Shown: positions 5,779 to 60,871 of the stretch, piece by piece
How the letters are laid out: every line of letters starts with the position of its first letter
Numbering within the stretch: position 1 is the stretch's first letter
Assembly (NCBI GenBank): GCA_029784825.1
Contig: JAFMAU010000003.1
Span: 34,378 to 98,377, forward strand
Direction of reading: 5' to 3'
DNA: 64,000 nucleotides
Source of the DNA: Nitrososphaerota archaeon
GTDB taxonomy: Archaea; Thermoproteota; Nitrososphaeria; Nitrososphaerales; UBA183
Program-made: the position numbers and the translations under genes
Notes under the pieces: model-generated
What the model saw: only the letters and a program-made list of their open reading frames with translations
What the model was told of the DNA's origin: nothing
Database searches by the model: none

Positions 5779-6531
5779 TATCGCAGCCAAAGCCCGGGTA
5801 CCGCTGATGTCCTTGTCCACTCCGGTCTTCACGAGAATGGAATCGATTCCTGCCCGCCTGGCCCCTTCGATGTCTGTGTCGAGCTGGTCCCCGACCATCA
5901 GGGCCTCGCGGGCCGTGCAGCCGGCGTCCTTCAGAGCGACCTTGAACATCAGGGTGGCGGGCTTGCCCACCTCGATCGATTTCTTGCCTGCCGCGTACTC
6001 AAGGGCCCTCACTATGGGACCCGTGGCCATGGCAGGGCCGTCGCGGGCCATGTAAAGCGCGGAAGTGTGCGTGGCGACTATAGGGGCGCCGTTCCGGGCG
6101 ACCGTGGTCGCTTGGTTGAGCTTTTCGTAGGTGAGGTGCCTGTCGAGCCCGACGACCACGAAGTCTGCCCGGTCGCCCTCCACCCTCCGGTGGCCGAAGC
6201 GCCTCATCTCGGTCTCTAGGCCACGCTCGCCGACCAGGTAGTAGGTCACCTTCCCGAACTTCGAGCGGAGGTGCTGAGCTGTCACGACGGAGCTTGTGAG
6301 CACCTCGTCTCTTCGCACCGGAACACCGGTCTCGATGAGGCGAGACCAGACGGTATCGGCCGTGTCCGTCGAGTTGTTGGTGAGCACGAAGAGCTTCTTT
6401 CCCCGCCTCCTGAGCTCCTTGACAATCCTCGTCCCGCCGATCTTGATCCTGCGCTCCTTACCCTTGTAAAAGACGCCGTCCAGGTCGAAGAGGAAGAGCT
6501 TCTTCGCGCTGAGGTCGATGCGCCCGGTCAT
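5731..6531 (-). CDS. HAD-superfamily phosphatase, NagD-like (subclass IIA)
   Basis: The 266-residue protein carries the four HAD motifs: DLDGVFYKG (nucleophile and acid Asp), VLTNNSTDT (motif II), a Lys in the GKP region, and MVGDQLDTDIEGA (motif IV). The layout matches sugar-phosphate, phosphoglycolate or p-nitrophenyl phosphatases of subclass IIA with a mid-protein cap; the substrate is unknown. Its ATG overlaps the stop of the upstream aconitase X small-subunit gene (6528-6531), so the two are probably translationally coupled. This context may tie it to isoprenoid precursor metabolism, but that is inference. Confidence 0.85.
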   Translation of the reverse strand: MTGRIDLSAKKLFLFDLDGVFYKGKERRIKIGGTRIVKELRRRGKKLFVLTNNSTDTADTVWSRLIETGVPVRRDEVLTSSVVTAQHLRSKFGKVTYYLVGERGLETEMRRFGHRRVEGDRADFVVVGLDRHLTYEKLNQATTVARNGAPIVATHTSALYMARDGPAMATGPIVRALEYAAGKKSIEVGKPATLMFKVALKDAGCTAREALMVGDQLDTDIEGARRAGIDSILVKTGVDKDISGTRALAAISNVDDLVGLFGDKGD

Positions 6532-6953
6532 TCGGATATCACCAGCTCGCCCTCGGTGCCCCTGAGAGAGACGCGCTTCCCCGTCTTCAGGCTCGAGTAC
6601 ATCTCCTTGGGAAAGGAAGAGGCCACAGGTATCGACCTGCCGTAGACGATCTTGGCGAGTGTGGAGCCGATGACGGCCGAAAGGTCCGTCGACTCCGTCA
6701 CGATGGCGGCCGGCAGGTTCCCCTGTCTGGCAGTCTCAAGGAACCAGGCCGAAGCGGTGGTGGAGCCCTTGCCGAATGGATAGAACAGGACCTTCCCCTT
6801 CACGTTCTCGCCCTTTATGTCGCTGCGGACGTCCGTGACATTCCCCGAGGAGGGGTCGACGCCGTGCGCGAATGTGAAGGCCTTCCTGGACAGGAGAGCC
6901 ACGCCCGAGACGTCGCCCGGGATGAGGCCGCGACCCTTGAAGCTCTTGGTCAT
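6528..6953 (-). CDS. Aconitase X small (swivel, DUF126) subunit, probable phosphomevalonate dehydratase small subunit
   Basis: The 141-residue protein matches the swivel domain of aconitase X: FKGRGLIPGDVSGVAL near the N-terminus, then PFGKGSTTASAWFLE and the conserved SIPVASSF stretch. In archaea this subunit pairs with the DUF521 large subunit to dehydrate mevalonate 5-phosphate to trans-anhydromevalonate phosphate in the modified mevalonate pathway. The start ATG overlaps the stop of the large-subunit gene by ATGA. A much longer open frame continues upstream, but it is antisense-like sequence through the large subunit, so the ATG at 6953 is taken. Confidence 0.88.
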   Translation of the reverse strand: MTKSFKGRGLIPGDVSGVALLSRKAFTFAHGVDPSSGNVTDVRSDIKGENVKGKVLFYPFGKGSTTASAWFLETARQGNLPAAIVTESTDLSAVIGSTLAKIVYGRSIPVASSFPKEMYSSLKTGKRVSLRGTEGELVISE

Positions 6954-8158
6954 CTGGTCACTTCCTCGATTATCTTCTCGGTGGGCGCGTAGCGGATCTT
7001 GATCTCTCCCTCGGAGGACACGAGCTCGGCCAGCTTCGCGGAGTTCGTCATGACGACGTTGAACCCCATCCTCTTCAGCGGGGATATCTCGGCGTCCGTC
7101 GTGTGGGTGAGCCTGGCACCGGATGCTTCGATCCCGCCCTTGATCCCCGACCTGGAGGCCATGTCGAAGGCCTGCGTCGAGGTGTAGATGTACATCTTGA
7201 CGCCGTCGATGAGCTTCCTCCCGCTCAGCCGCTTGGCGAGGTCGCCCATCTCGCTCACCGAAAGGTGGGGGACTCCGAAAGCCACCAGATCCGGGCGCTC
7301 GGTCGTCTGGTCGAGCTCGGCCTCGACGGAGTCGAGGTCGGACCGTTGGATTTCGACCCTCTCCAGCGCCTCCCCGCCAGAAGCGTCCTCCTCGGTGCTG
7401 GACCCCGGCGTTATTCCGGGGAGGTGGATCATTGTGATCGGGCCCGCCGCTGCCGCAGCTGCGCCGAGGTGCTTCACCTCGTCGCTGGTGATGTTCTGCG
7501 GGAGGCCGTTCAGAACCGGCACCCTCGCGCCCGAGGTCTTGCCCAGGAAGAAGCCGACGCTCCGGTAGTCGAGGTCGCTGAGCTTCCCCGCGCCGACCCT
7601 GAAGGACATTCTCGCCCTCCTGTTCTCGTCGAGCAGCATCCCGAACCTCGGAGTGAGGCCGGTGAGCGCGCACGCAAGGTCCAGCCCTGACGTTATCTTG
7701 TTGGTGCGGCACCCGATGAGGGTGTTGGCGAAGACGACGGAGCTGGACTCGGACCAGGCGACGATCTCGCCCGTCTTCGGAAAGTTGCAGACCTGGTACT
7801 GCACGCAGGTCCAGCATGGGATGCCGCCCAGCTTTCCGTACGCCCGGCAGAGCCTGAACTGCTTCTCGGCGTAGTCCTCAGGGATGCCGAAGCTGCGCCA
7901 GTTTTCGAGGTCAACGCTCGCCGGGTCCACGGTCGTGGGCACGGCGAACTTCCCGCCCGCGCTTGCGAATTTCTCCAGCATCTCGATGCCCGCCTCGTGG
8001 AGGCTGCTGAAGTGCGCCAGGACGTGCCCCGACACGATGGGCACCAGCGAATCCGCAGCCATGGCGTCTCCTACGTTAGTCAGGATCTCCATGGCGAGCT
8101 GCTTTGCTTCTCCGGCTTCCCCTCGGAGAACCTTCTCTTGACCAGAGTCGAGGTGCAT
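6950..8158 (-). CDS. Aconitase X large (DUF521) subunit, probable phosphomevalonate dehydratase large subunit
   Basis: The 402-residue protein shows the aconitase X core: WSESSSVVFANTLIG followed by CRTNK, a cysteine-rich stretch (PCWTCVQYQVC) that could ligate the Fe-S cluster, and VMTNSAKLAEL near the C-terminus. The family dehydrates mevalonate 5-phosphate in the archaeal mevalonate pathway. One oddity: where many relatives have a DTC-type cysteine before VMTNS, this protein reads THTTDAE, so that ligand appears absent. The ATG at 8158 has a TATA-like CTTTAATAAG about 30 nt upstream, supporting this start over the longer frame. First gene of a three-gene coupled operon with the small subunit and the HAD phosphatase. 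Confidence 0.85.
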   Translation of the reverse strand: MHLDSGQEKVLRGEAGEAKQLAMEILTNVGDAMAADSLVPIVSGHVLAHFSSLHEAGIEMLEKFASAGGKFAVPTTVDPASVDLENWRSFGIPEDYAEKQFRLCRAYGKLGGIPCWTCVQYQVCNFPKTGEIVAWSESSSVVFANTLIGCRTNKITSGLDLACALTGLTPRFGMLLDENRRARMSFRVGAGKLSDLDYRSVGFFLGKTSGARVPVLNGLPQNITSDEVKHLGAAAAAAGPITMIHLPGITPGSSTEEDASGGEALERVEIQRSDLDSVEAELDQTTERPDLVAFGVPHLSVSEMGDLAKRLSGRKLIDGVKMYIYTSTQAFDMASRSGIKGGIEASGARLTHTTDAEISPLKRMGFNVVMTNSAKLAELVSSEGEIKIRYAPTEKIIEEVTR

Positions 8159-16627: not shown

Positions 16628-16939
16628 ATGCCTCAGTACGCCAGGATCAAGCTTACGAGCACAAACCTCCCCGAGCTCGAGAAGGTGGCCAAGGACATCA
16701 GGGACATCGCCGAGAAGACCGGCGTCAAGGTGAAGGGGCCCCAGCCGCTTCCGACCAAGAGGCTGAAGATAACGACCCGAAAGGCTCCCACGGGCGAGGG
16801 AAGCCACACCTTCGACCATTGGCAGCTGAGGATTCACAAGAGGATACTTGACGTCCAGCCCGACGACAGGACGATGCGGGCAATTACGAAGCTCAGGATT
16901 CCCGACGACGTCAAGGTCGAAATGATTCTGACGGCCTAG
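16628..16939 (+). CDS. rps10: Small ribosomal subunit protein uS10
   Basis: The 103-residue protein is archaeal uS10. It begins with YARIKLTSTNLPELEKVAKD, continues through KGPQPLPTKRLKITTRKAP and has the family end (DVKVEMILTA). It is part of the 30S head and is full length. CTAAATAG near 16594-16601 lies about 28 nt from the ATG. It is not beside an EF-1A gene here, and it overlaps the convergent epimerase by 4 bp. Confidence 0.96.
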   Translation: MPQYARIKLTSTNLPELEKVAKDIRDIAEKTGVKVKGPQPLPTKRLKITTRKAPTGEGSHTFDHWQLRIHKRILDVQPDDRTMRAITKLRIPDDVKVEMILTA

Positions 16940-17829
16940 CCCGTCTTCCTTACCCATTCAATCGTACGCTTCAGCCCTTCCTCCAGCGTCAGTTCGTGCT
17001 TGTAGCCGAGGACCTTTTGGACCTTCTCAGTGGACGGGTAGCTGACCTGGGGCTCCTTCTCCTGCTCGCTCCTCGGAGGCGCGCTGTTGAGGACGGAGCT
17101 TGACCCCGTGAGTTTCTTTATGGTCTCCGCAAGCTGCCTGACTGTGACCGCCTTTTCGCCGCCGAAGTTGAAGGCGTTACCAACGGCCTTGTCATCGTTC
17201 AGGATCGACAAAGCCAGCTTGGCGTAGTTCGCAGCGTACGACGGGGAGGTGGTGTCCCTGCCTCCTCCGAAGAGCGTGATCGGCTCGTTCTTCAGGCAGG
17301 CCCTGATGAACCTGATCGTTGCCCTGGTCGGCTGGTCGTACTCACCGAAAAGGAGCCAGCTGCGCGTGATAGAGACGGGCAGACCCTTGGCCCTGAAGTA
17401 CCCCATAGCCAGGTTCTCGGAGACTACCTTCGAGTAATCGTATGGCACTCTTGGTTCGAAGGGCGAGTCCTCCTTCACCGGGTTCTTCTTTGGCGCGCCG
17501 AAGACGTTGGCAGACGACGCGAAGAGAAACCGCTTCGCGTTCTTCTTCAGGGCCAGTTCCAGCATGTTGAGCGTCCCGAAGCAGTTGACCTCGAAGCAGA
17601 GCTTGGGGTTCTCGATCGTCTTCTTGATCTCTGTGATGGCTGCGAGGTGGACCACGGCGTCGAAGTCCAAGGAGGCGAGCTTGGTGAAGACGAAGTCGTT
17701 GCTGAGCAGGTCGCCGCTGACCGGAAAACCGCCAAGGTCTGTTGGAATCACTTCAACGTCGTGACGCGTGAGGTAGTCCACAAGGTTCCTCCCCACCATC
17801 CCGGAGGCGCCCGTGACGAGGACCTTCAA
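16936..17829 (-). CDS. NAD-dependent epimerase/dehydratase (extended SDR)
   Basis: The 297-residue protein has the N-terminal Rossmann motif VTGASGMVGRNL, the HLAAITE region and the catalytic pair YDYSKVVSE (YxxxK). It resembles UDP-glucose 4-epimerase and related nucleotide-sugar epimerases, but specificity is not readable. A TATA-like CTTAAATAG near 17854-17862 lies about 28 nt upstream of the ATG at 17829, consistent with leaderless transcription. Confidence 0.88.
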   Translation of the reverse strand: MKVLVTGASGMVGRNLVDYLTRHDVEVIPTDLGGFPVSGDLLSNDFVFTKLASLDFDAVVHLAAITEIKKTIENPKLCFEVNCFGTLNMLELALKKNAKRFLFASSANVFGAPKKNPVKEDSPFEPRVPYDYSKVVSENLAMGYFRAKGLPVSITRSWLLFGEYDQPTRATIRFIRACLKNEPITLFGGGRDTTSPSYAANYAKLALSILNDDKAVGNAFNFGGEKAVTVRQLAETIKKLTGSSSVLNSAPPRSEQEKEPQVSYPSTEKVQKVLGYKHELTLEEGLKRTIEWVRKTG

Positions 17830-18349: not shown

Positions 18350-18745
18350 CTAGGCTGTCGGAAGCCCAGCCAGCTTCGAAGCCAGCTCTTTGACCAGCTC
18401 CTCGTCGACGACCCCGTAGCCCATTGCGTCCGTGCCGTCCCTGAGGACCACTGGCATCCTGGCGACATGGAAGGGGACCTCGAACCCTGCTGCCCTGCCC
18501 TCGTCGCCTGCTTCGTGGAGCTTCTCGCAGGTTCCGTCGTGGTAACGAAAGTGGGCGACCATCACCACCCTTCGCTCTCCGAACCCGCCTCCCCTCCCGC
18601 CCGCGGCCAAAGAACCTTCGAGTATCTTCATCAGGACCAGCTCGTTTTCTCCTGCGAGAGACTTGAGGTCAACGTCCTTTGACGCTATGACGACGACCCG
18701 TGACGGTCCGGCGAGGAGACTCGACAGCTCGTCTATGGGAGTCAT
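18350..18745 (-). CDS. Hypothetical protein
   Basis: The 131-residue soluble protein has a Gly-rich central loop (AAGGRGGGFGERR) and a Cys/His segment (RYHDGTCEKLHEAGDE), then PFHVARMPVVLRDG near the end. The order of a hydrophobic strand, a Cys region and VARMPVVLRDG loosely recalls a thioredoxin-like fold with its cis-Pro strand, but there is no CxxC. No family is recognised. Its stop lies just upstream of the cupredoxin frame, so the two may have formed an operon. Confidence 0.6.
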   Translation of the reverse strand: MTPIDELSSLLAGPSRVVVIASKDVDLKSLAGENELVLMKILEGSLAAGGRGGGFGERRVVMVAHFRYHDGTCEKLHEAGDEGRAAGFEVPFHVARMPVVLRDGTDAMGYGVVDEELVKELASKLAGLPTA

Positions 18746-18902: not shown

Positions 18903-19844
18903 TTGAGGATAGTAATAGCGCTCGGCGGTAACGCGCTCGAAGAGCCCGGGCAGCACGCCTCATACGAGTCGGAAGAGGTGAACGTCAAGAAGGCGTGCAG
19001 CCAGATGCTCGAAATCATCGAGCACGGCCACCAGCTCGTAATCACGCACGGCAACGGCCCTCAAGTCGGGTACCTCGAACTCCAGCAGGCCTCGGTCCCG
19101 AACGTGCCGGTCCAGCCGCTGCATGTCCTAGGAGCGATGACCCAGGGCGAGATCGGATACCTCATCCAGCGGGAGCTGGGGAACCTTCTCCGCTCAAAGT
19201 CGATCAAACGGAGGGTGGTCTCGGTGGTGACGCAGACGCTTGTGGACAAGGATGACCCCGCGTTCAGCGCACCTTCGAAGCCGATCGGCCCGGTATATGA
19301 TGAAGCGGGGGCCGCGCAGCAGACGGCGCGGGGGTATGTCATGAAGAATGTGGTACTGAAGGGAGGCTCTGGATTCAGGCGGATAGTACCCTCGCCGGAG
19401 CCCATCAGAATCATCGAGGCGGAGCTGATTTCATCCCTAGCGGAGACTGGCTCGATAGTCGTGGCCTCGGGGGGTGGCGGGATCCCGGTAGTCCAGAAGC
19501 CGAACGGCGACCTTGAGGGCGTGGACGCCGTGATCGACAAGGACCTTTCAGCGGAGAAGCTGGCGGAGGCGGTGGGCGCCGACCTGCTCCTCATCCTGAC
19601 CAACGTCGAAAGGGTGAAGCTGGACTACGGCAAGCCGGGAGAAAGGGACGTCGAGTCGATGACGGTCGCCGAGGCGAAGAAGCACATGAAGGAGGGTCAG
19701 TTCGCACCCGGAAGCATGGGGCCCAAGGTACTCGCCTGCGTGAGGTACGCCGAGTGGGGCGGAAGGCCCGGCATCATCACGTCGCTGGAAAGGGCAATCC
19801 TGGCTCTGGACGGGAAGGAAGGGACGCGGATCACCCTAGAATAG
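18903..19844 (+). CDS. arcC: Carbamate kinase
   Basis: The 313-residue protein is an amino-acid-kinase-fold enzyme with ALGGNAL at the N-terminus, VITHGNGPQVGYLEL, VASGGGGIPVV and the C-terminal FAPGSMGPKVLA, all typical of carbamate kinase. It interconverts carbamoyl phosphate plus ADP and carbamate plus ATP. The TTG start at 18903 is about 30 nt from the TTTTTTAATG element at 18868-18877. Neither an ornithine carbamoyltransferase nor an arginine deiminase gene is nearby, so its pathway is unclear; the damaged carA-like gene 3 kb away makes its role in carbamoyl phosphate supply interesting. Confidence 0.9.
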   Translation: MRIVIALGGNALEEPGQHASYESEEVNVKKACSQMLEIIEHGHQLVITHGNGPQVGYLELQQASVPNVPVQPLHVLGAMTQGEIGYLIQRELGNLLRSKSIKRRVVSVVTQTLVDKDDPAFSAPSKPIGPVYDEAGAAQQTARGYVMKNVVLKGGSGFRRIVPSPEPIRIIEAELISSLAETGSIVVASGGGGIPVVQKPNGDLEGVDAVIDKDLSAEKLAEAVGADLLLILTNVERVKLDYGKPGERDVESMTVAEAKKHMKEGQFAPGSMGPKVLACVRYAEWGGRPGIITSLERAILALDGKEGTRITLE

Positions 19845-20149: not shown

Positions 20150-20896
20150 CTACTTCCATTTCGTCAGTATCTCCTCCCTGCGGAACGTAGCTTTGGCGAC
20201 GTAGAGCATGAGCACGTCGACCGCTAAGAGGACGCCCGCGATGAGAAGAAGGTTGTTGATGTCGCCGAGGTCTACCAGATTCAGTTCGCCAGAAACGTAG
20301 ATGCCTGCGAGCGGGAGCATCAGCAGAATTCCAATCTGTTGCGCGATTCGCACATCGCTCACCCTTGCCGAGACGATGACGTTCCATTCGACACTCATTA
20401 CTATCGCGAGAGGGACCATGAGAAAGAGAACAGCGGCCGCATTCCAGTTGGGGAAGAAGTTGTAACCCAGCGTGGTATGCGTCACGAGGTCAGTGAGACC
20501 CATGAAGACCGTGGCTGCTCCCAGGATGGCCGTAACGGGCGGGAGGAACGCCGCAATCCCCTTTCCGAGCAAGATCTCGCCGTCGGTCGTTGGTGTGGCA
20601 AGAAGCGGTTCGAGGCTCTTCTCGACTTTCTCGCCGACCAGACTGTAGGAGGCGATGGTCGACGGAATCATGCCTGCGAGTATCAGATAGAAGAAGCTGA
20701 ATGAAGGTAGGAGATAGGTGAGCGCCGCCGCTCCGACTCCTTTCCCGCCACTCCCGTGCCCCGCATACTCGATTACAACCGGGAAGAGAAACGAGATGAG
20801 GAGCGGGACGACGATGAGGGAATAGATTATGTTCTTCTTCCTCATGAACACCTTGAAGTCCTTCGAGGCGATGATCCACGATTTCGAGAGCCTCAC
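20150..20896 (-). CDS. ABC-2 type transporter permease
   Basis: The 248-residue membrane protein has about six hydrophobic segments and a charged N-terminus (SWIIASKDFKVFMRKKN) typical of ABC-2 exporters and Na+/drug efflux permeases. It would form the membrane channel for the ATPase encoded just upstream: its start overlaps that gene's stop at 20893-20896. The substrate is unknown. The last coding bases lie next to the small interrupted gene. Confidence 0.85.
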   Translation of the reverse strand: MRLSKSWIIASKDFKVFMRKKNIIYSLIVVPLLISFLFPVVIEYAGHGSGGKGVGAAALTYLLPSFSFFYLILAGMIPSTIASYSLVGEKVEKSLEPLLATPTTDGEILLGKGIAAFLPPVTAILGAATVFMGLTDLVTHTTLGYNFFPNWNAAAVLFLMVPLAIVMSVEWNVIVSARVSDVRIAQQIGILLMLPLAGIYVSGELNLVDLGDINNLLLIAGVLLAVDVLMLYVAKATFRREEILTKWK

Positions 20897-21813
20897 TTCT
20901 CAGCCCTCACGAGGTTGAGGTAGGCATCCTCCAACGACGAACCGACTATGTTGACGGTCTGGACGCGGCCGCCGGCCCGCACTACCGTCTCGACGATTGC
21001 GGCATTCTCTCTTTCGGGGTCCTTCACACCGATGGTCAGTCTGCTGCCATCGGCTTCCACGCTCCCCATCGGCATCTTCCTCAGGGCGGCCAAGACAGCT
21101 TCGCTCGCCTGCTCCAGCTGAATCACCGTTTTCCGGCCGCGGACTGACCGCTCGAGCTCGGCCGGGGTGCCCGTAGCCATCAGCCGTGTGTTCAATATCC
21201 CGATCTTGTCGCAGACTCTCTGCGCTTCGTCTAGGTTGTGCGTGTTCAGGAAGATTGTCCTCTTATCCTTCTTGAGTTCCAAGATGAAATCCCTGACCGT
21301 CTTCGACGCCTCTGGGTCCAGGTTCGCCGTGGGCTCGTCCATGAACAGTACCTGCGGATCGTGCACGAGCGCGCGTGCTATCGCGAGCTTCTGCTTCATT
21401 CCCTTCGAGAACGTGCCCGCGGCGACGTCCCGCTTCTCCCAGAGGCCCAGCATCGTGAGCAGGCGCTGGATGTTCTCCTTCCTCTTCGCGTCGGGACATT
21501 CGTAGAGCTTCCCGTAGAAGTCCAGGTTGTCGTAGGCGCTGAGTACCTCATAGAGGCCCACGTTGTCGGGGACTAGCCCTATGAGCTTCCTGATACTCAA
21601 CGAGTCTGTTTCCCTTCCCACGTCGTACCCCGCTATCCTAGCGACTCCACTCGTCTTCCCTATCAGACAGCATAGCATCCGAACCGTCGTGGTCTTCCCG
21701 GCGCCGTTTGGTCCTAGGAAACCGAAGACCTCGCCGTCGTCCACACGGAGTGTCAGACCGTCCACTGCGGTCAGGTCTCCGAACTTCTTGGTCAGGTTTT
21801 CAGTCTCAATCAC
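20893..21813 (-). CDS. ABC transporter ATP-binding protein
   Basis: The 306-residue ATPase has Walker A GPNGAGKTTTVRML, signature FSKGMKQKLAIARAL, Walker B VLFMDEPTANLDPE and the switch His in FLNTHNLDEAQRV. The C-terminal extension (from about residue 225) resembles the DrrA/CcmA-type accessory domain of exporters. It pairs with the ABC-2 permease that follows with an ATGA-like overlap. The GTG start at 21813 is fixed by an upstream in-frame stop. A TATA-like tract lies near 21875-21882, leaving a leader of about 35 nt. Confidence 0.9.
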   Translation of the reverse strand: MIETENLTKKFGDLTAVDGLTLRVDDGEVFGFLGPNGAGKTTTVRMLCCLIGKTSGVARIAGYDVGRETDSLSIRKLIGLVPDNVGLYEVLSAYDNLDFYGKLYECPDAKRKENIQRLLTMLGLWEKRDVAAGTFSKGMKQKLAIARALVHDPQVLFMDEPTANLDPEASKTVRDFILELKKDKRTIFLNTHNLDEAQRVCDKIGILNTRLMATGTPAELERSVRGRKTVIQLEQASEAVLAALRKMPMGSVEADGSRLTIGVKDPERENAAIVETVVRAGGRVQTVNIVGSSLEDAYLNLVRAEK

Positions 21814-22108: not shown

Positions 22109-23392
22109 TCAGATCCCGAGCTTCACCGACCTTTCCAGCGCGGAAACCAGAGTGGTCGCCAGCTCAGCGTTTGTGATGATTGGTATGCCGAACTCTACGG
22201 CCCTCCTCCTGATCAGATAGTCGTTCCTCACTTCTTCCTCTTCGAAGCTCTTCGGAATGTTGATGACGAGGTCCACTTTCCTCTGAGACAGGAATGTCGA
22301 AACATTGGGCTCTAGTTTCTCCATTGGCCAATGAAGAAACGTTGTTTCAACCCCGTTTGTCTTGAGGAACCTTGCAGTTCCTCCTGTTGCGCAAAGCTCG
22401 AAGCCGAGCGCGTCTAACTTGCGAACGGTCGGAAGGAGGAGCTGCTTCGTCTTTGGCGGGCCTGTGGACAGGAGAATCGAACGCTTAGGCAGGCGGAAGC
22501 CGGAAGCGAGGAGCGACTTCAGGAACGCTTCATGGAAGGTCTTCCCGAAGCAAGCGACCTCGCCCGTCGAGACCAGGGGAAGGTCTGTCTCGAGGAGGGA
22601 TCGGACCGACTTGATTGCCGACCGGCAGAGTGCCGGGTCGCCAGGGCCGTTGGAAATGACGACGCCGCTGGGGTTCGTTGCGCCCACCTCTTCAGCACCG
22701 GTGTCGCAGAGTACCTGGACGACATTGAACCCCCTCGCCAGCAGGTTTCTGAGAATCCCGAACTTCATCCCGCAGTCGATGACCACAACTGTGGGGCCGC
22801 CGCCCTTGTACCGCCCTGGCTGGGAGGTCGAGACCCGACCGACAAGGTCGGTAGAATTCGGGTCTTGGAGAGACCTCGCGGCCTGTTTCAGCCTCTCGAG
22901 ATCGAGCGACGGGCCGACGCTGGTCAGCCCCAGCATCGTGCCGCTGGTCCGCAGCCTCTTCGTCAACTCACGGGTGTCTATCCCTGAAATCCCTGGGATG
23001 CCGCTCTCCTTCAGCCATTCGGGGAGCGACGACCGGGAGGACCGGTGGGAGGGCCTCGCCTGCGCCTCGGCGACTGCACAGCCAGTCACCTTGATGGAGT
23101 CGGATTCGAAGTGAAGCGGTATTCCCGATTCATCGACAAGGTCGCGGCGAGGTACCCAGTAGTTGCCGACAAGGGGCCAGGTCTGGACCAAGATCTGCCC
23201 GCAGTATGAAGGGTCTGTCAGCGATTCTGGGTATCCGACCATCCCTGTGTTGAAGACGACCTCGCCTGAGACTGTACCCCCCGCGCCAAAGCCCCTTCCG
23301 AGGAAGACGGTGCCATCCTCGAGAATAAGGACTGCGTTCTGCTCCGGGCCCAGCACTTTCCGGAAGGCTTCGTCTCCGGGAAGCTGATTCAA
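22109..23392 (-). CDS. CarA N-terminal region fused to CarB C-terminal domain (carbamoyl phosphate synthase chimera)
   Basis: The 427-residue frame is unbroken. Residues 1-274 match the carbamoyl phosphate synthase small subunit: EDGTVFLGRGFG, GEVVFNTGMVGYPE, GISGIDTRELTKRLR, and the start of the glutaminase domain, VVISNGPGDPALC. At residue 274, just before the GICLGHQ-type nucleophile segment, the match switches to the large subunit's C-terminal regulatory domain: STGEVACFGKTFHEAFLKSL, LCATGGTARFL, and DYLIRRRAVEFGIPI. The joint lies at 22570/22571. Missing are the glutaminase Cys/His/Glu and all of CarB's ATP-grasp domains, so it cannot make carbamoyl phosphate. It reads like an in-frame deletion of about 3 kb across adjacent carA and carB, real or from assembly. 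Confidence 0.85.
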   Translation of the reverse strand: MNQLPGDEAFRKVLGPEQNAVLILEDGTVFLGRGFGAGGTVSGEVVFNTGMVGYPESLTDPSYCGQILVQTWPLVGNYWVPRRDLVDESGIPLHFESDSIKVTGCAVAEAQARPSHRSSRSSLPEWLKESGIPGISGIDTRELTKRLRTSGTMLGLTSVGPSLDLERLKQAARSLQDPNSTDLVGRVSTSQPGRYKGGGPTVVVIDCGMKFGILRNLLARGFNVVQVLCDTGAEEVGATNPSGVVISNGPGDPALCRSAIKSVRSLLETDLPLVSTGEVACFGKTFHEAFLKSLLASGFRLPKRSILLSTGPPKTKQLLLPTVRKLDALGFELCATGGTARFLKTNGVETTFLHWPMEKLEPNVSTFLSQRKVDLVINIPKSFEEEEVRNDYLIRRRAVEFGIPIITNAELATTLVSALERSVKLGI

Positions 23393-23466: not shown

Positions 23467-24711
23467 TTGGTTTTCGAGATCTCACAGTACCTCTCCGTGA
23501 GGGAAGCGCTTTCGCATGCACTGGCCGAACTCGGGCAGCCGGTGCCCGAGACGGTCCCGGTCAAGAGGGCCTTCGGCAGGGTCGCGGCAGCGAATGTTGT
23601 CAGCAGTGCGGACGTCCCAGCATTCAGCACGTCTCACAGAGACGGGTTCGCGATTCGGGCGGAGGATTCGGCAGGGGCGACAGAGGCAAAGCCGTCGAGA
23701 TTCACTCTTGTAGGCAACATACCTCTGGGCAGAAGGCCAACCAAGGGCCTGGGAAAGGGCGAGGCAGTCCGCGTGGCGACCGGGTCCTTCATTCCAACCG
23801 GAGCCGACGCGGTTGTGCAAGTCGAGGATGCGAAGGTCGTCGGAGGGAGGCTGCAGGTCACCCGCGAAGTCCCCCTCGGGTCGTATGTCTTCGGAGCGGG
23901 GGAGGATGTCAGGAAGGGCAAGGTCGTAGTGAAGAGTGGCGAGGTGCTAAGGGCGCAGGACGTGGGGATGCTTGTAGCGCTGGCCGTCAGAGAGGTCAAG
24001 GTCTGGAAGAAACCCATGGTCGCCATCCTCGCGACAGGCAACGAGCTCACCAACTCGATGTCCCCTAGCACCAACAAGACGAGGAACAGCCACGCGCTGG
24101 TTTTCGTTTCAATGGCCAGGGCGCTCGGATGCGATGTCGTCGACCTGGGGATCGCCAAGGACAAGGTGGGGGTCATTCTCGGGCGGCTTTCCAGGGGCCT
24201 CAGAGAGGCGGACATCGTGATGATGACGGGCGGCACCTCGGTGGGCAAGCTGGACCTGGCCGATGACGTACTTTCAAGGCTCAGGCCCAAGGTCCTCTGC
24301 CACGGGCTCAGGATGGACAGAGGAAGGGTTGCCGGACTGGCGGTGGTGAAGGGAAGGGGCGTCGTCATGATGCCGGGCCCGATTCAGGGAGCGATGAACG
24401 CCTTCATCCTTCTGGGGCTCCCGATGATCGAGAAGTTGTCTGGGAGAAGCGCGGTCAGGATGACCATGGGCGCGAAGCTGACACGGCGCTGGGAGGCGCG
24501 GAAGAAGTTCCCCAATTTCACAAAGGTCGTCTACCTCAGAGTCTTCCAGTCCAGGACCGGAGTCGCGGCTGAGCCGCTGGCGGGGGAGACCGAGTCGATG
24601 ACGCTGCTGACTGATTCGAACGCCTATGCGGTGATACCCGAGGAGATAACCTCCCTCGAGGCGGGTCGCGAGATAGACGCGCACCTACTTCCCGGCTTTT
24701 CCTTTGTCTAG
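23467..24711 (+). CDS. moeA: Molybdopterin molybdotransferase
   Basis: The 414-residue protein begins with YLSVREALSHALAELG and carries STSHRDGFAIRA (substrate-site Asp), IPTGADAVVQVEDA, ILATGNEL and DIVMMTGGTSVGKLD, all MoeA signatures. MoeA inserts molybdate into adenylylated molybdopterin in the last step of cofactor assembly. The domain set is complete, including the C-terminal beta barrel. The TTG start at 23467 follows a TATA-like element. Its last 27 bases overlap the convergent mocA-like gene. Confidence 0.93.
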   Translation: MVFEISQYLSVREALSHALAELGQPVPETVPVKRAFGRVAAANVVSSADVPAFSTSHRDGFAIRAEDSAGATEAKPSRFTLVGNIPLGRRPTKGLGKGEAVRVATGSFIPTGADAVVQVEDAKVVGGRLQVTREVPLGSYVFGAGEDVRKGKVVVKSGEVLRAQDVGMLVALAVREVKVWKKPMVAILATGNELTNSMSPSTNKTRNSHALVFVSMARALGCDVVDLGIAKDKVGVILGRLSRGLREADIVMMTGGTSVGKLDLADDVLSRLRPKVLCHGLRMDRGRVAGLAVVKGRGVVMMPGPIQGAMNAFILLGLPMIEKLSGRSAVRMTMGAKLTRRWEARKKFPNFTKVVYLRVFQSRTGVAAEPLAGETESMTLLTDSNAYAVIPEEITSLEAGREIDAHLLPGFSFV

Positions 24712-38244: not shown

Positions 38245-41200
38245 CTACGGAGCTGGCGTCGAGCCCGCTGGCCTGGCCGCCCTTCCCGACTTCCTCCGAA
38301 GGAGGAAGACCGCCAGACCGACTACCACAACGACCGCCGCGACCACGATGCCGAGGGACGTGGTGCTGAGCAGGACCGAGGCGGGAGTTACGCTCTGGGT
38401 CGAGGCGTCGCCAGTCACCTGAGCGGAAAAGCCCAGGCTTGAGACGGTCGCCGTGAAAGTGCCCAGCGGGATGGACGGGGCTGTGAAGGTGCCGTCTCCA
38501 CCGGTGGTCCCAGACAGGACCGCCCCGTTGGCTAGGGTCATCTTGACCTGGGCTCCAGAGACAGCGAGGCCCAGGCTGTCGGCCACCTTCAGGGTCGCGT
38601 CGTAGACTCTTGCCTTTATCGCGACGGAGTTCGGGCCGGTGACGGAGTACTGGGAGGTTCCCGAAGGCTTGACATCGACTCCTTCGTATGTGACCTTGGC
38701 CAGGGTGAACGAGGTGCCGTTGTCCAGCCACGTGCTGAAGCCGGGGACGTCCTGGGTCTGGCCTCTGACGGAGACCTGGAGGTCCGAAGGCGTTATCGCC
38801 ATGGACCCCGAGGCGTTGGTGAAAGTGAATGCTGTGTAGTATTGGGTGACAGATTTCACGTCGATCGTGTGGGGAGAATTCATCGTGAGGCTGACGGAGA
38901 ATGTCCCACTCCCCGCCTCTGGCACGGAAGTTACTGAGCCCCCGTCGACGCTGTATCCGGTGGCGGAAATCCTGGATTTCTGCGAAACAACGTTCCAGAC
39001 GTTGCTGTAGTTGACTGTAACGGAAGCGCCGGAGTCGTACCAGCCGGCGTCGCCGCTGATCTTCGGTGGCGTGACGGATGAAACAGATCCAGTGGGCATC
39101 GAAAGCTGGTACTGCGTCACTGACGTGGCGGTGACGGATTGCGGCGATGAAATCGAGTTGGTCGAGAAGGCGCTGACCGTTCCAGTTGTCGCGACTGCCG
39201 TCGAGCTCCCGCCGTTCACCGAGTATGCAGTCAGCCTGTTCCCAGAGCCGGATGCCCTTCCCCAGACGCCGTTCAGCGCGAGGGAGACCGGCGTGCCTTC
39301 GTCGTACCAGTAGACATCGCCCTTGATGGTGGGCTGTGTGATGGAGGAGAGAGCCTGGGTGGCCACGGAATCGAGTGAGACCTGGTATTGGCGCACAAGG
39401 CTGACGGCCAGCGTGTGCGGTTGCGACATGGTTATGGAGAAGGGCACTGAGCTGAGGGTCAGCGGGAACGCCTGGGACGGGCCGCCGTCCAGACTCGCCG
39501 ACGCGGCTCTAAAACCAGCGCCGTCGGCCCTGCCAAGGGTGGTCGTGATGTTGACGGAGGCTAGCGCTCCTTCGTTGTACCAGGAGGTCGTGGTCATCAA
39601 CTCGGTGACGGTCAGAGCGTACTGGTGGTAGTAGCTCAGGGGTATCGTCGCTGCGCCGGAGACAGTGCCGTTCGCTGAGGGGGAGTACCAGCGCTCTTCT
39701 GCCGTTGAGCCCGCGAGTGGGTTCGTGGCCGAGTAGGTCTGGCCGGCGTCGACCCATACCTGTTGCAGCGTGCTGGTGAGAGGCTGCGTGAAGGCGGAGC
39801 CGAAGGAGAGGCTGCTCAATGTGGGGGCGCTCGGGAGTCCCGAGCCCACGATTGCGTAGTCGAAGCTGAGCAGATACTGGTGGTAGAACGGAACGGTGAC
39901 TGTGCCCGCGGCTGTGATTGTGCCTGCTTTGGTCGATGTTGCCCACCTTTGGTTCGCCGACGACCCCGACAGTTGCGCTGGATAGGAGTAGGTGGAAGAG
40001 GCGTCGCCCCAGACGGCTGTCCCTGTCGTCGTAGAAGTGATGATGCCGAACTGGGTGTAATTCACAGCGGGAGAGCTGTACCCGGTCCCTCCGCCGACGA
40101 TGTTGAATCCGTAGGTGACGGAGAACTGATGGTAGTAAACCAAGGCAGTCGTCACTGAGGATGTTGCCGTCCCTGACGTCGCTTGATTGGTCTGCCACCT
40201 AACGGTGGAGGACGACCCGGTCAGCGGGTCATTGATGCTCCAAGAGCTTCCGGGGTCGGCCGAGTAAGACGTCGGGGTGTTGCTGAGGACAGCGGTTTGC
40301 TGCGCTCCGCCGATAGTATAGGTAAGAACCGGCGCGCTGTAGCCGCTGCCCCCGCCAGAAACAGAGAAGCTCGCCGTAATCTTGACGGTGGTAGGCGGCG
40401 TCGGCGTGACCATCCAGACGCCGCGGCCATGCGTCGCAGCGATCAGCTGGTTCGAGGAGGTGATCTCTAGGTCGAACACGGCTATGTTAGGGAGTCCAGT
40501 ACCGGGTGTAGCCCAAGTCGCTCCCGAGTCGGTCGAATAGTAGGTACCGTGGTCTGTCCCAACGTAAAGGTTCCCCGCCTTGTCTATCCGAACGACGTTG
40601 ATCCTGTCGGGCGCGGCAGACAACACGGCCCCTTGCCAGGCCCCTGACTGTAGGACGAACTTGTGGAGGGTGGTCTGGTAGGCCGCCGCCACGTAGACCA
40701 GATTCGCGTTGCTGGGGTCGACAGCCAGGCCGCTAACCGGGAATCCAGTGATCGTGCCTACGAGCCGCCAGGTGGTTCCGCCGTCGTTTGAGACCTTTAT
40801 CTCTCCTGATGCGTCACCGAGATAGACGGTGCTGCTGCTGGAGGGAGCGACAGCCAGGACCGAGATGACCGCGCCGCCCAGCGGACCGCTGACGTCGTTC
40901 CAAGTTGTGGCGAAGTCGGTCGTCTTGTACACATGGGTCCCGCCGATGTACAGGGTGCCCGGAGTGCTGGGGTCTTGGGCCACGGGCGCAACGAACTCGC
41001 TGTTGTCATTCTGGTTAATCCCGTTCACTGCATCTTGGAAGGTGTTGCCTCCGTCGGTCGACTTGCGAAAGTCCAAGTTGACGTAGTTGCAGTATGCTAT
41101 GCTTGGATTCGTGGACTCCACACCGCTCCACCCCCCGTCGCCCCCTCCGACCTGCGGCCAAGATGACGACCCGGTGTACTTGTCGCACCCGTTGTCCTGG

Positions 41201-42681
41201 GCCCCGCCGATCAGGAACGTGCTTGGAGTGCCCGCAATCGAATAGAACTGGGTCAACCCTAGGCCGGCGTTGAGGTCCGTCCAGGTCGTGCCTCTGTCGG
41301 CAGACTCCCAGATGCCGCCGTCGTTGCCTTCGTAGATCGTGCTGGAGGTTGACGGAAGGAAAGCGAAAGCGTGCTGGTCGGGGTGAAGCGACCCGGGCGA
41401 GAATCCGCCGAGGTCTGTCCAAGAAGCGCCTCCGTCAGTGGAAAGGAAGAGGTCCACACCGCCGAAATACAACACATTAGCGTTGGACGGGTCCGCCGCA
41501 ATCAACAGGTCGTAATCGCACTGACCGTTGCAGGGTGTTATGCCGGTGGCTGGATTGGGCGGTGAATTCAGGGCGACTATCTGGCCAGTCGAAAGGTCGT
41601 CCCTGTATATCCCGTAAAGGTTGCCGGCGGTGTCGCTGAAGGCGGCATACACAGAGCCGGGTTTCGCAGCAGTTGTTGCTATCGTTGCCCTGCACCCAAC
41701 CCCGGTCATGCAATTCGTAGAGGTCAGGTGCAGGAGTATGCTCCAGCTCGAGCCGTCGTCAGTCGACCTCCACACGGTTCCGTTGAACCCCGCTGCGTAG
41801 ACCGTGTTAGAATTTGTCGCGTTGACCACGAGTTCGGAGAAGCTTACCTCCAAGCTGTGAGACACCAGCGTGGGCGTCCACGTACTCCCTCCGTCTGTGG
41901 AGAGGTATACGCCGTAGGCTGATTGATTTGAATCCGTGAAGAATCCTTTGCAGCATACGCCGCGGGTGGTGGAGACTAGCAACCTGTTTGGATTGCTGGG
42001 GTTTACGATGACCCCAGAGATGGCGCTCCCCTTGAACGTGCTCTCTCCGTAGACTGCCCAAGTCTTCCCACCGTCGGTTGACTTCAGAAGGCCGGCTCCG
42101 GAGTAGCTGTCCCCGGAGTGGTTCGGTTCGCCTGTCCCAGCATAGATAGTCTTCCCGTCAGCGGAGATCGTGATGGAACCGATCGCCAGGCTGGGCTCGC
42201 TGTCCGTCAAAGGCGTCCATGTGCTTCCACCGTCTGTAGTCCTCCAGACACCTCCCTGGGCGCCTCCGATGTAGATGTTCTTCGTGTTGCTGCTGTTGAC
42301 AGCTATCGCAGTGACCCGACCGGAGAAGGGGGGCGTCCCATAGTAACTCGGAGTGCTGGTGGGTGCGACTATTGGCTTCGGGCCGAGCTCGGACCAGGCT
42401 GTGATTCCAGCGGGCGTCGAGGGGCCAGCGGGCGGTCGTGCCGAAGGCGGAGGAAGGGAGGCGGGCGGAGGCCCACCTGCGGGCGGGGACTGCGCCGAGG
42501 GCCATAGGTGTGTCAACTGAGATGTGGGTAGGAGTTCTTCGGGGACAGAATTATCGTGGACCGACTGGACGGCGCCAGGTTGGGCACTAATCGACAGCGA
42601 CGAGGCCAGCGCAGCTGGTACGGCAGGAAGAAGCATGGCCAGCAAGAAGACGGATACAATGAGCTTCATCGCCGTTGCCAA
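38245..42681 (-). CDS. Giant surface protein: BNR propeller, repeated beta domains and membrane anchor
   Basis: The 1,478-residue protein starts with a signal peptide (MKLIVSVFLLAMLLPAV), then a Pro-rich linker and a large Asp-box propeller to about residue 760 (SADGKTIYAGTGEPN, STDGGSTWTP and similar). The middle holds tandem beta modules beginning YYHQF/YHQY with GGGxGYSxP, followed by a second module type with QYQ, PxIxGDxxWYDxG and a YSVxGG core. A carboxypeptidase-regulatory-like domain (VSGAQVKMTLANGAVL) precedes a C-terminal helix and basic tail. It is probably exported and anchored. ATG 42669 is an alternative start. The ligand or role is unknown; adhesion or glycan binding is plausible. 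Confidence 0.8.
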   Translation of the reverse strand: MATAMKLIVSVFLLAMLLPAVPAALASSLSISAQPGAVQSVHDNSVPEELLPTSQLTHLWPSAQSPPAGGPPPASLPPPSARPPAGPSTPAGITAWSELGPKPIVAPTSTPSYYGTPPFSGRVTAIAVNSSNTKNIYIGGAQGGVWRTTDGGSTWTPLTDSEPSLAIGSITISADGKTIYAGTGEPNHSGDSYSGAGLLKSTDGGKTWAVYGESTFKGSAISGVIVNPSNPNRLLVSTTRGVCCKGFFTDSNQSAYGVYLSTDGGSTWTPTLVSHSLEVSFSELVVNATNSNTVYAAGFNGTVWRSTDDGSSWSILLHLTSTNCMTGVGCRATIATTAAKPGSVYAAFSDTAGNLYGIYRDDLSTGQIVALNSPPNPATGITPCNGQCDYDLLIAADPSNANVLYFGGVDLFLSTDGGASWTDLGGFSPGSLHPDQHAFAFLPSTSSTIYEGNDGGIWESADRGTTWTDLNAGLGLTQFYSIAGTPSTFLIGGAQDNGCDKYTGSSSWPQVGGGDGGWSGVESTNPSIAYCNYVNLDFRKSTDGGNTFQDAVNGINQNDNSEFVAPVAQDPSTPGTLYIGGTHVYKTTDFATTWNDVSGPLGGAVISVLAVAPSSSSTVYLGDASGEIKVSNDGGTTWRLVGTITGFPVSGLAVDPSNANLVYVAAAYQTTLHKFVLQSGAWQGAVLSAAPDRINVVRIDKAGNLYVGTDHGTYYSTDSGATWATPGTGLPNIAVFDLEITSSNQLIAATHGRGVWMVTPTPPTTVKITASFSVSGGGSGYSAPVLTYTIGGAQQTAVLSNTPTSYSADPGSSWSINDPLTGSSSTVRWQTNQATSGTATSSVTTALVYYHQFSVTYGFNIVGGGTGYSSPAVNYTQFGIITSTTTGTAVWGDASSTYSYPAQLSGSSANQRWATSTKAGTITAAGTVTVPFYHQYLLSFDYAIVGSGLPSAPTLSSLSFGSAFTQPLTSTLQQVWVDAGQTYSATNPLAGSTAEERWYSPSANGTVSGAATIPLSYYHQYALTVTELMTTTSWYNEGALASVNITTTLGRADGAGFRAASASLDGGPSQAFPLTLSSVPFSITMSQPHTLAVSLVRQYQVSLDSVATQALSSITQPTIKGDVYWYDEGTPVSLALNGVWGRASGSGNRLTAYSVNGGSSTAVATTGTVSAFSTNSISSPQSVTATSVTQYQLSMPTGSVSSVTPPKISGDAGWYDSGASVTVNYSNVWNVVSQKSRISATGYSVDGGSVTSVPEAGSGTFSVSLTMNSPHTIDVKSVTQYYTAFTFTNASGSMAITPSDLQVSVRGQTQDVPGFSTWLDNGTSFTLAKVTYEGVDVKPSGTSQYSVTGPNSVAIKARVYDATLKVADSLGLAVSGAQVKMTLANGAVLSGTTGGDGTFTAPSIPLGTFTATVSSLGFSAQVTGDASTQSVTPASVLLSTTSLGIVVAAVVVVVGLAVFLLRRKSGRAARPAGSTPAP

Positions 42682-58683: not shown

Positions 58684-59620
58684 CTGAAACAGACAATCGA
58701 AGAGTTCTTTCACAGATTAGCTCGCAATCTTCTCAAACCTGGTGAAAAGTCAGAACGCACCACAGTAGCATTTTGGGGGTGCCCTAGCGGCCAGGTCGAA
58801 AGCCTCGATCCCGCCAAAATCGCCTTCCTGGGCCCCAACAAGACCAGATTCAGCGTCAACCCCTTCGAACTTCCTCCCGGCTCGGACGAGGACGACCAGA
58901 ACGTGAAGTCTGTTTACATAGGATTCGTGATGAAGGTAATCGAAGAGTGGTACGGCGCAGACCCGAAGAAGACACCACGGATGTTGAGGATCTTCCGCTC
59001 CTTAATCTCATACCTCTACGCTCTGACCGACAGCCCCACGTTCATCGACCTTCATGACATCGTGGTCGGGCTTCAGGCTAGCGACGAAGCCATCCTGAGA
59101 CATGGCGAACGTCCTCGACAAGCTCGAATTTGAGGCTCTGAAGAAGGAGCTCACTTCAATCTCGGATATGAGATGGGAAGCATTCGACCCAGGCCTGACG
59201 CGTCTATCGGAGTTCGCAGTAGACCCCTACCTTCGAAGGCTCTTCGGTGCCGCCAGGCATTCCGCAGTGGGTTTCACGAAGCCCCTCGATCCTGGACGGC
59301 AGACAATCATCCGCGTGCCGAGCCACGAGGTCGGGCTACACATCGGCCCCCTCGTGCAATCTGTAATCCTACTGAAACTATGGTTTGCAGTGCTTTGGAG
59401 GGCCACCAAGGTACCGGTGAGGGAGAGGACGCCCGTCGTGCTGTGGTTGGACGAGTTCCAGGACCTTCAGCGGCTGCAGGCCATCCAGACGATACTCTCG
59501 CAGGCGAGGTCCCAGGGACTCTGCCTGATGCTGAGCCATCAGGCGACTGCGCAGCTCGATGATTCCCTGCTGAGGATCATAATCGGGAACGCGGGCGTCC
59601 AGGGCGCGGGGAGGGTGAGT
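58684..59620 (+). pseudogene. Broken HerA/TraG-like conjugation ATPase
   Basis: An open frame from 58684 without a start encodes HRLARNLLKPGEKSERTTV, then IAFLGPNKTRFSVNPFELPPG and SLISYLYALTDSPTFIDLHD. It shifts frame near 59100; the second part reads MANVLDKLEFEALKKELTSI, VPSHEVGLHIGPLV and the Walker B TPVVLWLDEFQDLQRLQAI, followed by LMLSHQATAQL. This is a VirD4/TraG/HerA-type ATPase, missing its N-terminal Walker A and its C-terminus. It would have powered DNA transfer in a conjugative element and is now decayed. Confidence 0.6.
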
Positions 59621-59639
59621 TTTTCAGCGTGCAACGTGG

Positions 59640-60652
59640 ACACTCCACGAGAACGATCTGGGATGCCTCGCCCTGCGCCTCATCCCTCGACAGTCCGCAT
59701 ATGGCTAGCACGCTCCTGTCCAAGTCCTTACACTCCAGTGCACGCACCTTCTCGACATCTTCGTCCCGAGGGTCCACCCTGCGAAGAGCGAGAGCTTCGA
59801 GTCCGTAAGCTTGTCCGCCATCTAGGTGAGCTGTGTATACCTGAACAGATACGGCCACACCTCTTTCTTCACAACCGCCCTGTTCGCAGAACCTCTGACA
59901 ATCATGCGGAAGTGGGGATAGCTCAGCCCCTCTGCCGTGTGTCCTCTGCCGAGGGCACACCACAATGGTGCGCTGCCGTCACCGCGAGAGGGATGGACGG
60001 AAAGCCATTTCGTCAACGGACGAAAGGACGTGACAAGCGGAATCCTCTTCTGCCCTGTCTTTCCCTTCGTTGAGACCACGCAATAGTCCTGTAGGAATTG
60101 GACTGACCCGACGCGCGTCGACAGAGGCTCTCCGGGACGGAACGCTCCCTCGAACAGCACCGAGATCATGGCCTCGTCCCCAGGATTCCGTGCAGCCTTC
60201 ATCATCGCGACGACGTCGTCCGATGAAAGGAGTTTGTCGGGCGTTACCCTAGACTCCTTCTCCGCCTCAGCAAGGCTCACGTTCAGCCTGATCCATGAGA
60301 CCTCATCTGGGAACGGATTATCGCGAGAGACGCTGCCGCTCCTCAGATACTGGAAGAACTTCTTCAGCGCGAGCTTGTAGCCGTGCTTTGTCCAGATCTT
60401 GTAGTTCGAACGGTTTAGCTATCCGACGAAGGACTCGACCTCCTTCCTCCCTGCGGTTTGGATATCCATGTTCTCTAGTATCCTGAGGCACTGCGCGTGT
60501 CTCAACACCTTGACCGAGGAGAGACCAGAAGCCTGAAGGTGGGTCAGGAACTCGACTCCCTTCTCGCCGTTGGGCATCTCCTTCAGGCGCTCCAGCATCC
60601 TGGTCAGCTTCTCCCTCGTGTAGTAGATGTCTGACTCCTCCCTGCGTTGCAT
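59640..60652 (-). pseudogene. Tyrosine recombinase (integrase), interrupted by two TAG codons and a frameshift
   Basis: Read leftward, an N-terminal SAM-like domain (from MQRREESDIYYTREKL, ending ESFVG) stops at TAG 60419-60421 but continues in frame as LNRSNYKIWTKHGYKLALKK. A catalytic domain follows (ISVLFEGAFRPGEPL with the Arg region, then VWPYLFRYTQLT) and meets TAG 59822-59824, continues as MADKLTDSKLSLFAGWT, and shifts frame near 59755 to reach KDLDRSVLAICGLS. The expected end (SRRYVH then LDRSVLAIYGL) needs the shift. It lies about 45 bp from the tRNA-Ser 3' end, the usual position for an integrase. Confidence 0.7.
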
Positions 60653-60696
60653 GCTCCCCTTACCACAAAAGCGAGGCTCCATACTCTAAGGAGGTA

Positions 60697-60793
60697 CGCC
60701 GGGAAAGGGATTCGAACCCTTGCGACCCGTGAAGGTCACGGGCTTTCTTGGCTGGACTCAAGGCCCGCGCAATAACCACTCTGCCATCCCGGC
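60697..60793 (-). tRNA. tRNA-Ser(UGA) with a 12-nt intron
   Basis: The gene folds as a class II tRNA: acceptor GCCGGGA/TCCCGGC, three-bp D stem GCA/TGC, anticodon stem CGGGC/GCCCG, anticodon TGA at 60758-60760, variable arm GACC/GGTC, T arm AAGGG-TTCGAAT-CCCTT and discriminator G. The anticodon stem only closes if a 12-nt intron (60745-60756, between positions 37 and 38) is removed, the canonical archaeal site. The long variable arm and G discriminator fit serine. The integrase relic begins just past its 3' end. Confidence 0.9.
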
Positions 60794-60871
60794 AGTTCGC
60801 ACGAGGATAGGAAGTCGATTTAACCGTTGAAGCGTTGGGCACAGGAAAATGGTTTTACCCGCTAACATCGG

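Follow-up and report, generated by a model that had tools for sequence, protein, structure and literature searches.

A CarA-CarB chimera beside a carbamate kinase gene, probably a relic of carbamoyl-phosphate synthase loss in an archaeon related to Nitrososphaerales

Introduction

What does an open reading frame represent when it begins as CarA and ends as the last part of CarB, the two subunits of carbamoyl-phosphate synthase (CPS)? Such a frame lies near a carbamate kinase gene (arcC) in the window, that is, the whole stretch of 64,000 nucleotides analysed here. It could be an error of the assembly, a protein kept for another role or the remainder of a gene pair that is being lost. The evidence set out below points to a genuine and recent product of deletion within a carA-carB pair, in an archaeon related to Nitrososphaerales, and most likely to a relic that is disappearing.

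Anatomy of the chimeric frame

The frame and its parts are placed in the window as follows.

22109..23392, minus strand: chimeric CarA/CarB open frame, 427 codons from TTG
23354..23356, minus strand: likely real start, GTG at residue 13 (by-eye alignment with the starts of 378-residue CarA homologues)
22571..23392, minus strand: residues 1-274, derived from CarA, with homology from residue 17 on (homology and domain matches)
22928..23329, minus strand: CPSase small-chain domain, residues 22-155 (Pfam)
22574..22786, minus strand: residues 203-273, first part of a class I glutamine amidotransferase domain that breaks off ahead of the Cys nucleophile (Pfam)
22570..22571, minus strand: joint between Leu274 (CarA) and Val275 (CarB) (alignment with genomes G588 and G632)
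22112..22570, minus strand: CarB-derived C-terminal part, residues 275-427 (profile match and homology)
22172..22438, minus strand: MGS-like (allosteric) domain, residues 319-407 (Pfam)

The minus strand is free of stops over 22109-23392, and the plus strand over the same positions is interrupted by them. By eye, Val13 (GTG) aligns with the Val or Met starts of 378-residue homologues, and the real product, on this alignment, probably starts there and has about 415 amino acids. Residues 1-16, mostly ahead of the likely start, have no homology match. From residue 17 to residue 274 the chimera aligns with the CarA protein P0002 at 75% identity, and 99% of residues 268-427 align with the CarB fragment P0121 at 81% identity. 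A chance open reading frame was ruled out, since both halves are homologous to known proteins.

In Pfam, the CarA half carries the small-chain domain CPSase_sm_chain (PF00988, residues 22-155, 153.4 bits), followed by a GATase match (PF00117, residues 203-273) that covers profile positions 1-75 of 190. The CarB half carries MGS (PF02142, residues 319-407) with 70.9 bits against a cut-off of 24.1, and no ATP-grasp family was matched anywhere in the chimera. With the CarA model TIGR01368 the score is 247.2 bits, below the cut-off of 307.35 and confined to profile positions 1-250 of 361, whereas a second CarA model, NF009475, is passed (228.2, cut-off 221). The CarB model TIGR01369 gives 85.5 bits (cut-off 1027) over profile positions 896-1051 only. 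Compared with these models, the two halves are unmistakably CarA and the C-terminal domain of CarB, and the glutaminase nucleophile and both ATP-grasp domains are lacking.

The loss of the nucleophile follows from the alignment with the CarA proteins of G588 and G632, the closest ones in the genomes searched at 64 and 65% identity, where the glutaminase motif G-I-C-L-G begins two residues after the position of Leu274. A preliminary description of this DNA had proposed, with no strand given, one uninterrupted frame of 427 codons, a joint at 22570/22571 and the absence of the glutaminase Cys motif and of both ATP-grasp parts. All of this is borne out, with Leu274 encoded by 22571-22573 and Val275 by 22568-22570 and the missing parts confirmed by Pfam, TIGR01369 and the alignment with G588 and G632. 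Judged from its sequence, the chimera product cannot make carbamoyl phosphate.

Origin of the joint

At the joint, P0002 reads ...VPLLGICLG and the relatives of CarB read ...MVSTGEVACFG, and the window has ...LPLV-STGEVACFG. By this comparison Leu274 (CTG) would come from CarA, and Val275 (GTC) most simply from CarB. As far as can be judged by eye from the relatives, the carA and carB sides of the joint have at most about two bases in common (TG).

In both G588 and G632, carA is directly followed by carB, and the two overlap: CarB homology starts, in a different frame, when about 20 bases of carA are still to come. Further on, carB is interrupted by contig ends, the remaining carB end being found on other contigs. 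Each of the two genomes has one CarA and pieces fitting one CarB, other matches to the CarB profile reaching at most 63 bits. A natural carA-carB fusion gene was ruled out, as the pair overlaps in different frames in these genomes. Given this overlap, one deletion of about 3.1 kb is a well-supported explanation of the chimera. The missing DNA is estimated from the 378-residue CarA and the CarB of locus L001 as about 351 + 2,740 - 20 bases. Such a single event would have removed the C-terminal third of carA, including the glutaminase Cys, together with about 910 carB codons, including both ATP-grasp domains, and would have brought the two frames into register by luck, a one-in-three chance. The preliminary description had invoked a single in-frame deletion of about 3 kb in an adjacent carA-carB pair; adjacency (in G588 and G632) and size hold up, but the length cannot be a multiple of three, because carA and carB stand in different frames. 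A tblastn search of the window with P0002 and the L001 CarB gave the chimera alone (next E values 2.5 and 0.34), which rules out a further stretch of CarA or CarB in the window, and so also that the missing part of carAB lies elsewhere in it.

Gene neighbourhood and relatives

The genes around the chimera are the following.

16936..17829, minus strand: NAD-dependent epimerase, also near arcC in G580, G541 and G632
18350..18745, minus strand: gene for a 131-aa protein, also near arcC in G580, G541, G632 and G572
18903..19844, plus strand: arcC, carbamate kinase, full length (TIGR00746, above cut-off)
20150..21813, minus strand: genes for an ABC-2 permease and an ABC ATPase, lying between arcC and chimera
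23467..24711, plus strand: moeA, in divergent orientation to the chimera; in G580 it directly follows arcC

The arcC gene lies 2.3 kb beyond the 3' end of the chimera. Its product matches the carbamate kinase model TIGR00746 over its full length with 388.7 bits (cut-off 358.25), and the solved structure closest to it in sequence is 1e19, which is labelled carbamate kinase. Among the matches listed, other ArcC proteins are 95%, 87-88% (ten of them), 82% and 81% identical over the full length, followed by 62%. One of them, P0244 (88%), and the CarA protein P0003 (75%, 378 aa) are both given with a JGI contig of 11,475 bases. A sister lineage thus probably has an intact carA near arcC, P0003 and P0244 being in all likelihood on one contig.

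Within the family of G588 (46 genomes), G580 is the nearest by both ArcC (62%) and MoeA (58%). Twelve frames of its locus L120 (G580:C1:240000-258000) have counterparts in the window, with order and orientation conserved: acnX, aldehyde dehydrogenase, the epimerase, the 131-aa gene, arcC, moeA, mobA, xdhC, moaE and three more. Between arcC and moeA, G580 has neither the chimera nor the ABC-2 permease/ATPase pair found in the window at 20150-21813. The longest moeA frame of G580 starts 294 bases after arcC, and the part that aligns with the window's MoeA about 0.6 kb after it, the corresponding gap in the window being 3.6 kb. Throughout the G580 genome there is no match to the chimera, matches to the CarB profile reach at most 58 bits (cut-off 1027) and no ATCase match exceeds the cut-off (best 139.5, cut-off 236.95).

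Two further arrangements are found around arcC. G572 has a row made up of the 131-aa gene, arcC, a gene for a 178-aa protein, carB, carA, pyrB and a pyrI-like gene, in which arcC faces carBA as in the window. In G541, where neither the chimera nor the CarB profile found a match, one strand carries pyrB, a pyrI-like gene and arcC consecutively, with 86 bases before arcC (L118, 5694-8155). This row suggests a carbamate kinase that would feed aspartate transcarbamoylase. The two pyrI-like genes score 116.7 and 119.6 with TIGR00240, below its cut-off of 148.55. On the contigs of G588 and G632, carAB was not found beside arcC, and this makes the ancestral place of the window's carAB uncertain; it may have stood here from the start or have been brought in. 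Leaving aside fragments of G610, the other listed members of the family have CarA at 46-52% identity, and their MGS matches are much weaker. The MGS type of the window is common to G588 and G632, most of their family matching it much more weakly. In G606 the arcC gene (L121, G606:C212) is split into two frames, which cover query residues 1-193 and 204-310. An unusual pairing is seen in P0158, a 308-aa protein given with MGS and PF02397.

Other parts of the window hold features of their own. A match to TraG/TraD-like coupling proteins (59102-60073) lies about 600 bases from a tRNA gene (60696-60794) whose anticodon is read as four letters, perhaps owing to an intron, and the stretch 59102-60794 is a possible integrated element. 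A 1478-aa protein (38245-42681) shows matches of the Sortilin/BNR type and a weak carboxypeptidase-regulatory-like end.

Sequence constraint and predicted structure

In a CarA tree of 35 rows, the end branch of the window measures 0.197, and the path leading from the fork shared with P0002-P0004 to those proteins about 0.22; this fork has only 44% support, and P0006 may be equally close. In an MGS tree of 27 rows, the window's branch is 0.075 and that of P0121 is 0.159, and their fork has 98% support. This lack of rate acceleration implies either a recent deletion or a product that remains under constraint.

The two halves of the chimera were also compared at conserved sites. At 54 near-invariant CarA sites (122 rows, the 298-aa partial P0108 being left out), the chimera has three changes, G79W, W117R and P228L, all of them radical; this is the joint highest number, shared with P0072, and the median is none. 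The near-identical pairs P0002/P0003 and L096/L098 mask each other's changes, so that their zeros are unfair controls. In a set of close CarA relatives (19 rows, 103 sites) the window has three violations, which is no extreme count, since P0011 also has three and P0006 five, the latter conservative. The MGS half shows no violation at 61 invariant sites of the close set (11 rows), and a single change, L388V, common to P0121, at 45 sites of a set of 123 rows.

In codon adaptation (0.63) and in third-position GC (0.73) the chimera stands at the low end of the window's genes, but clear erosion is not seen; the reference consisted of 18 frames, among which 6528-7817 was left in, largely in the wrong frame. 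The AlphaFold2 model has a mean pLDDT of 78.7 and a pTM of 0.52. Its MGS region is confident, with pLDDT above 90 over most of residues 301-420, and the N-terminal part is patchier, with low-confidence stretches. As far as signs of a relic are concerned, the essential catalytic parts are lost, and no internal stop or frameshift is present over the 427 codons.

Relic, retained protein or assembly artefact

The preliminary description had left three options, a relic, a repurposed protein or a collapse of the assembly, and had recommended that the same junction be sought in protein databases. Among the matches listed, one protein, P0001, carries it: the joint and the length are those of the chimera, from which it differs by V399I. 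Its cluster comprises two member sequences and one contig. In the search with the whole query (8,000 candidates scored), P0001 is the sole protein with both CPSase_sm_chain and MGS among the best 120 of 7,737 matches, and the same holds among the best 120 of 343 matches to residues 268-427. The search of genomes with the chimera (1,088 genome searches, repeats included: 1+81+398+162+400+46) gave, among the matches listed, no other short frame holding both parts. Frames of carB and carA that look truncated in G496 and G416 (loci L128 and L129) were dropped as further cases, since they run into or stand at runs of N. P0122, a CarB relative with an internal gap of, by eye, about 100 residues in the second ATP-grasp part, may be an assembly product; it is given with no contig data and was left out as evidence.

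In the artefact reading, an intact carAB would have been collapsed or misjoined during assembly. Loci of this kind do assemble badly, as seen in the carAB of G588 and G632, broken by contig ends, and in the truncated frames at runs of N in G496 and G416. Moreover, a contig of 179,548 bases is given both for P0001 and for the window's ArcC (P0240); it is probably the window's own contig, so that the sequences with the joint may not be independent and the second may come from the same project. Against this, V399I means that two DNA sequences carry the joint, the two sides of which share only some two bases by eye from the relatives. An intact form, if common, would be expected among the matches, and no intact carAB of the window's own species was found among those listed: identity reaches at most 75% for an intact CarA and 81-82% for a CarB end. 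An artefact is therefore improbable, and of the three options the collapse lost ground to the relic.

About as improbable is a retained and repurposed protein, in which a truncated CarA scaffold and a working MGS ligand-binding domain would serve, with no catalysis, to sense or regulate such things as nucleotide levels. In its favour, both sequence variants keep the frame intact, neither half evolves faster than its intact relatives, the MGS part is conserved at all the invariant sites of the close set and it is predicted with high confidence. However, the amidotransferase domain is cut midway, the N-terminal part of the model has low-confidence stretches within a modest pTM, three near-invariant CarA sites carry radical changes and, apart from P0001, no relative of this architecture is known among the matches listed. 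The more specific proposal of a catalysis-free metabolite sensor, kept in an archaeon that lacks CPS and makes carbamoyl phosphate by carbamate kinase, is highly improbable. A recent deletion product that is being lost remains the favoured reading, and it leaves the question of whether the relic has any metabolic consequence. It would have none if a second, intact carAB elsewhere in the genome made carbamoyl phosphate. The window covers only part of a contig, and the CarB present in most of the family, with a much weaker MGS match to the window, is of a type that may coexist with the one seen here; yet G588 and G632, the nearest by CarA, have one CarA each and pieces fitting one CarB, and G580, the nearest by ArcC and MoeA, shows none. 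A second carAB is thus unlikely, although less so than either an artefact or a repurposed protein, and the lost carAB is inferred to have been the organism's only carbamoyl-phosphate synthase.

Supply of carbamoyl phosphate

The loss of CPS would be tolerable with the conserved carbamate kinase next to the chimera, or with the uptake of pyrimidines and arginine, and ArcC may supply carbamoyl phosphate. As a general replacement of CarAB, ArcC was rejected, there being no association over all 46 genomes of the family: it is present in 8/13 genomes without CarB and in 14/33 with CarB (Fisher p 0.33). In the genomes of at least 1.5 Mb, a cut chosen post hoc, it is present in 5/5 without CarB against 11/23 with CarB (p 0.053), so that a co-occurrence of ArcC in place of CarB is suggestive at best. 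An ATCase above the cut-off is missing in 11 of the 13 genomes without CarB and in 3 of the 33 with it (p 2e-6); part of this co-loss comes from the position of pyrB next to carA in several genomes, where both can be missed at once. As most of the CarB-less genomes also lack ATCase, some of them may be incomplete or may take up pyrimidines instead. Of the 13, G541 and G606 keep ATCase, and each of these two has arcC.

The capacity of archaeal carbamate kinases for this role has been studied in Thermococcales. According to PMC13260591, the kinase of P. abyssi made carbamoyl phosphate at 120 mM ammonium and 60 mM bicarbonate, and CPS-less E. coli grew with the kinase of P. furiosus when given 20-50 mM ammonium bicarbonate. 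The same paper reports that in T. kodakarensis, which has no carAB, disruption of arcC had little effect, and that ArcE/ArcB, the enzymes that provide carbamoyl phosphate from arginine, could not be replaced by arcC. A review (PMC6022934) treats the Pyrococcus kinase as anabolic. The locus described here resembles the CPS-less Thermococcales with carbamate kinase in that arcC is likewise present where carAB is lost or absent; T. kodakarensis differs, arcC being insufficient there and carbamoyl phosphate coming from arginine by way of ArcE/ArcB (PMC13260591).

Discussion

Fusions of the two CPS parts occur elsewhere: in the single-chain enzymes of animals (CPS I, CAD), a glutaminase-type part stands ahead of the synthase part. 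Those fusions retain the synthase part, whereas the fusion of the chimera would have arisen by losing it. The MGS part of the chimera scores 95.8 bits with the mitochondrial CPS (ammonia) and 33.5 bits with the large chain of 1a9x. In the open papers of PubMed Central on carA-carB fusion, carAB deletion or pseudogenes, no report of such a joint was found, the one listing being a Klebsiella colonization study, and those searched for group I.1c Thaumarchaeota with pyrimidine biosynthesis gave nothing.

The interest of the chimera lies in its place, as a broken carAB beside a conserved carbamate kinase, with a collinear relative that seemingly has no carAB. An archaeal lineage seems to be caught here in the course of losing CPS, flanked on one side by a sister lineage whose carA is intact and probably close to arcC and on the other by the collinear G580, which has no carAB at that site. 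The window and G541 thereby offer a place outside Thermococcales in which carbamate kinase can be tested as a source of carbamoyl phosphate, a role on which the literature is divided (PMC6022934 against PMC13260591).
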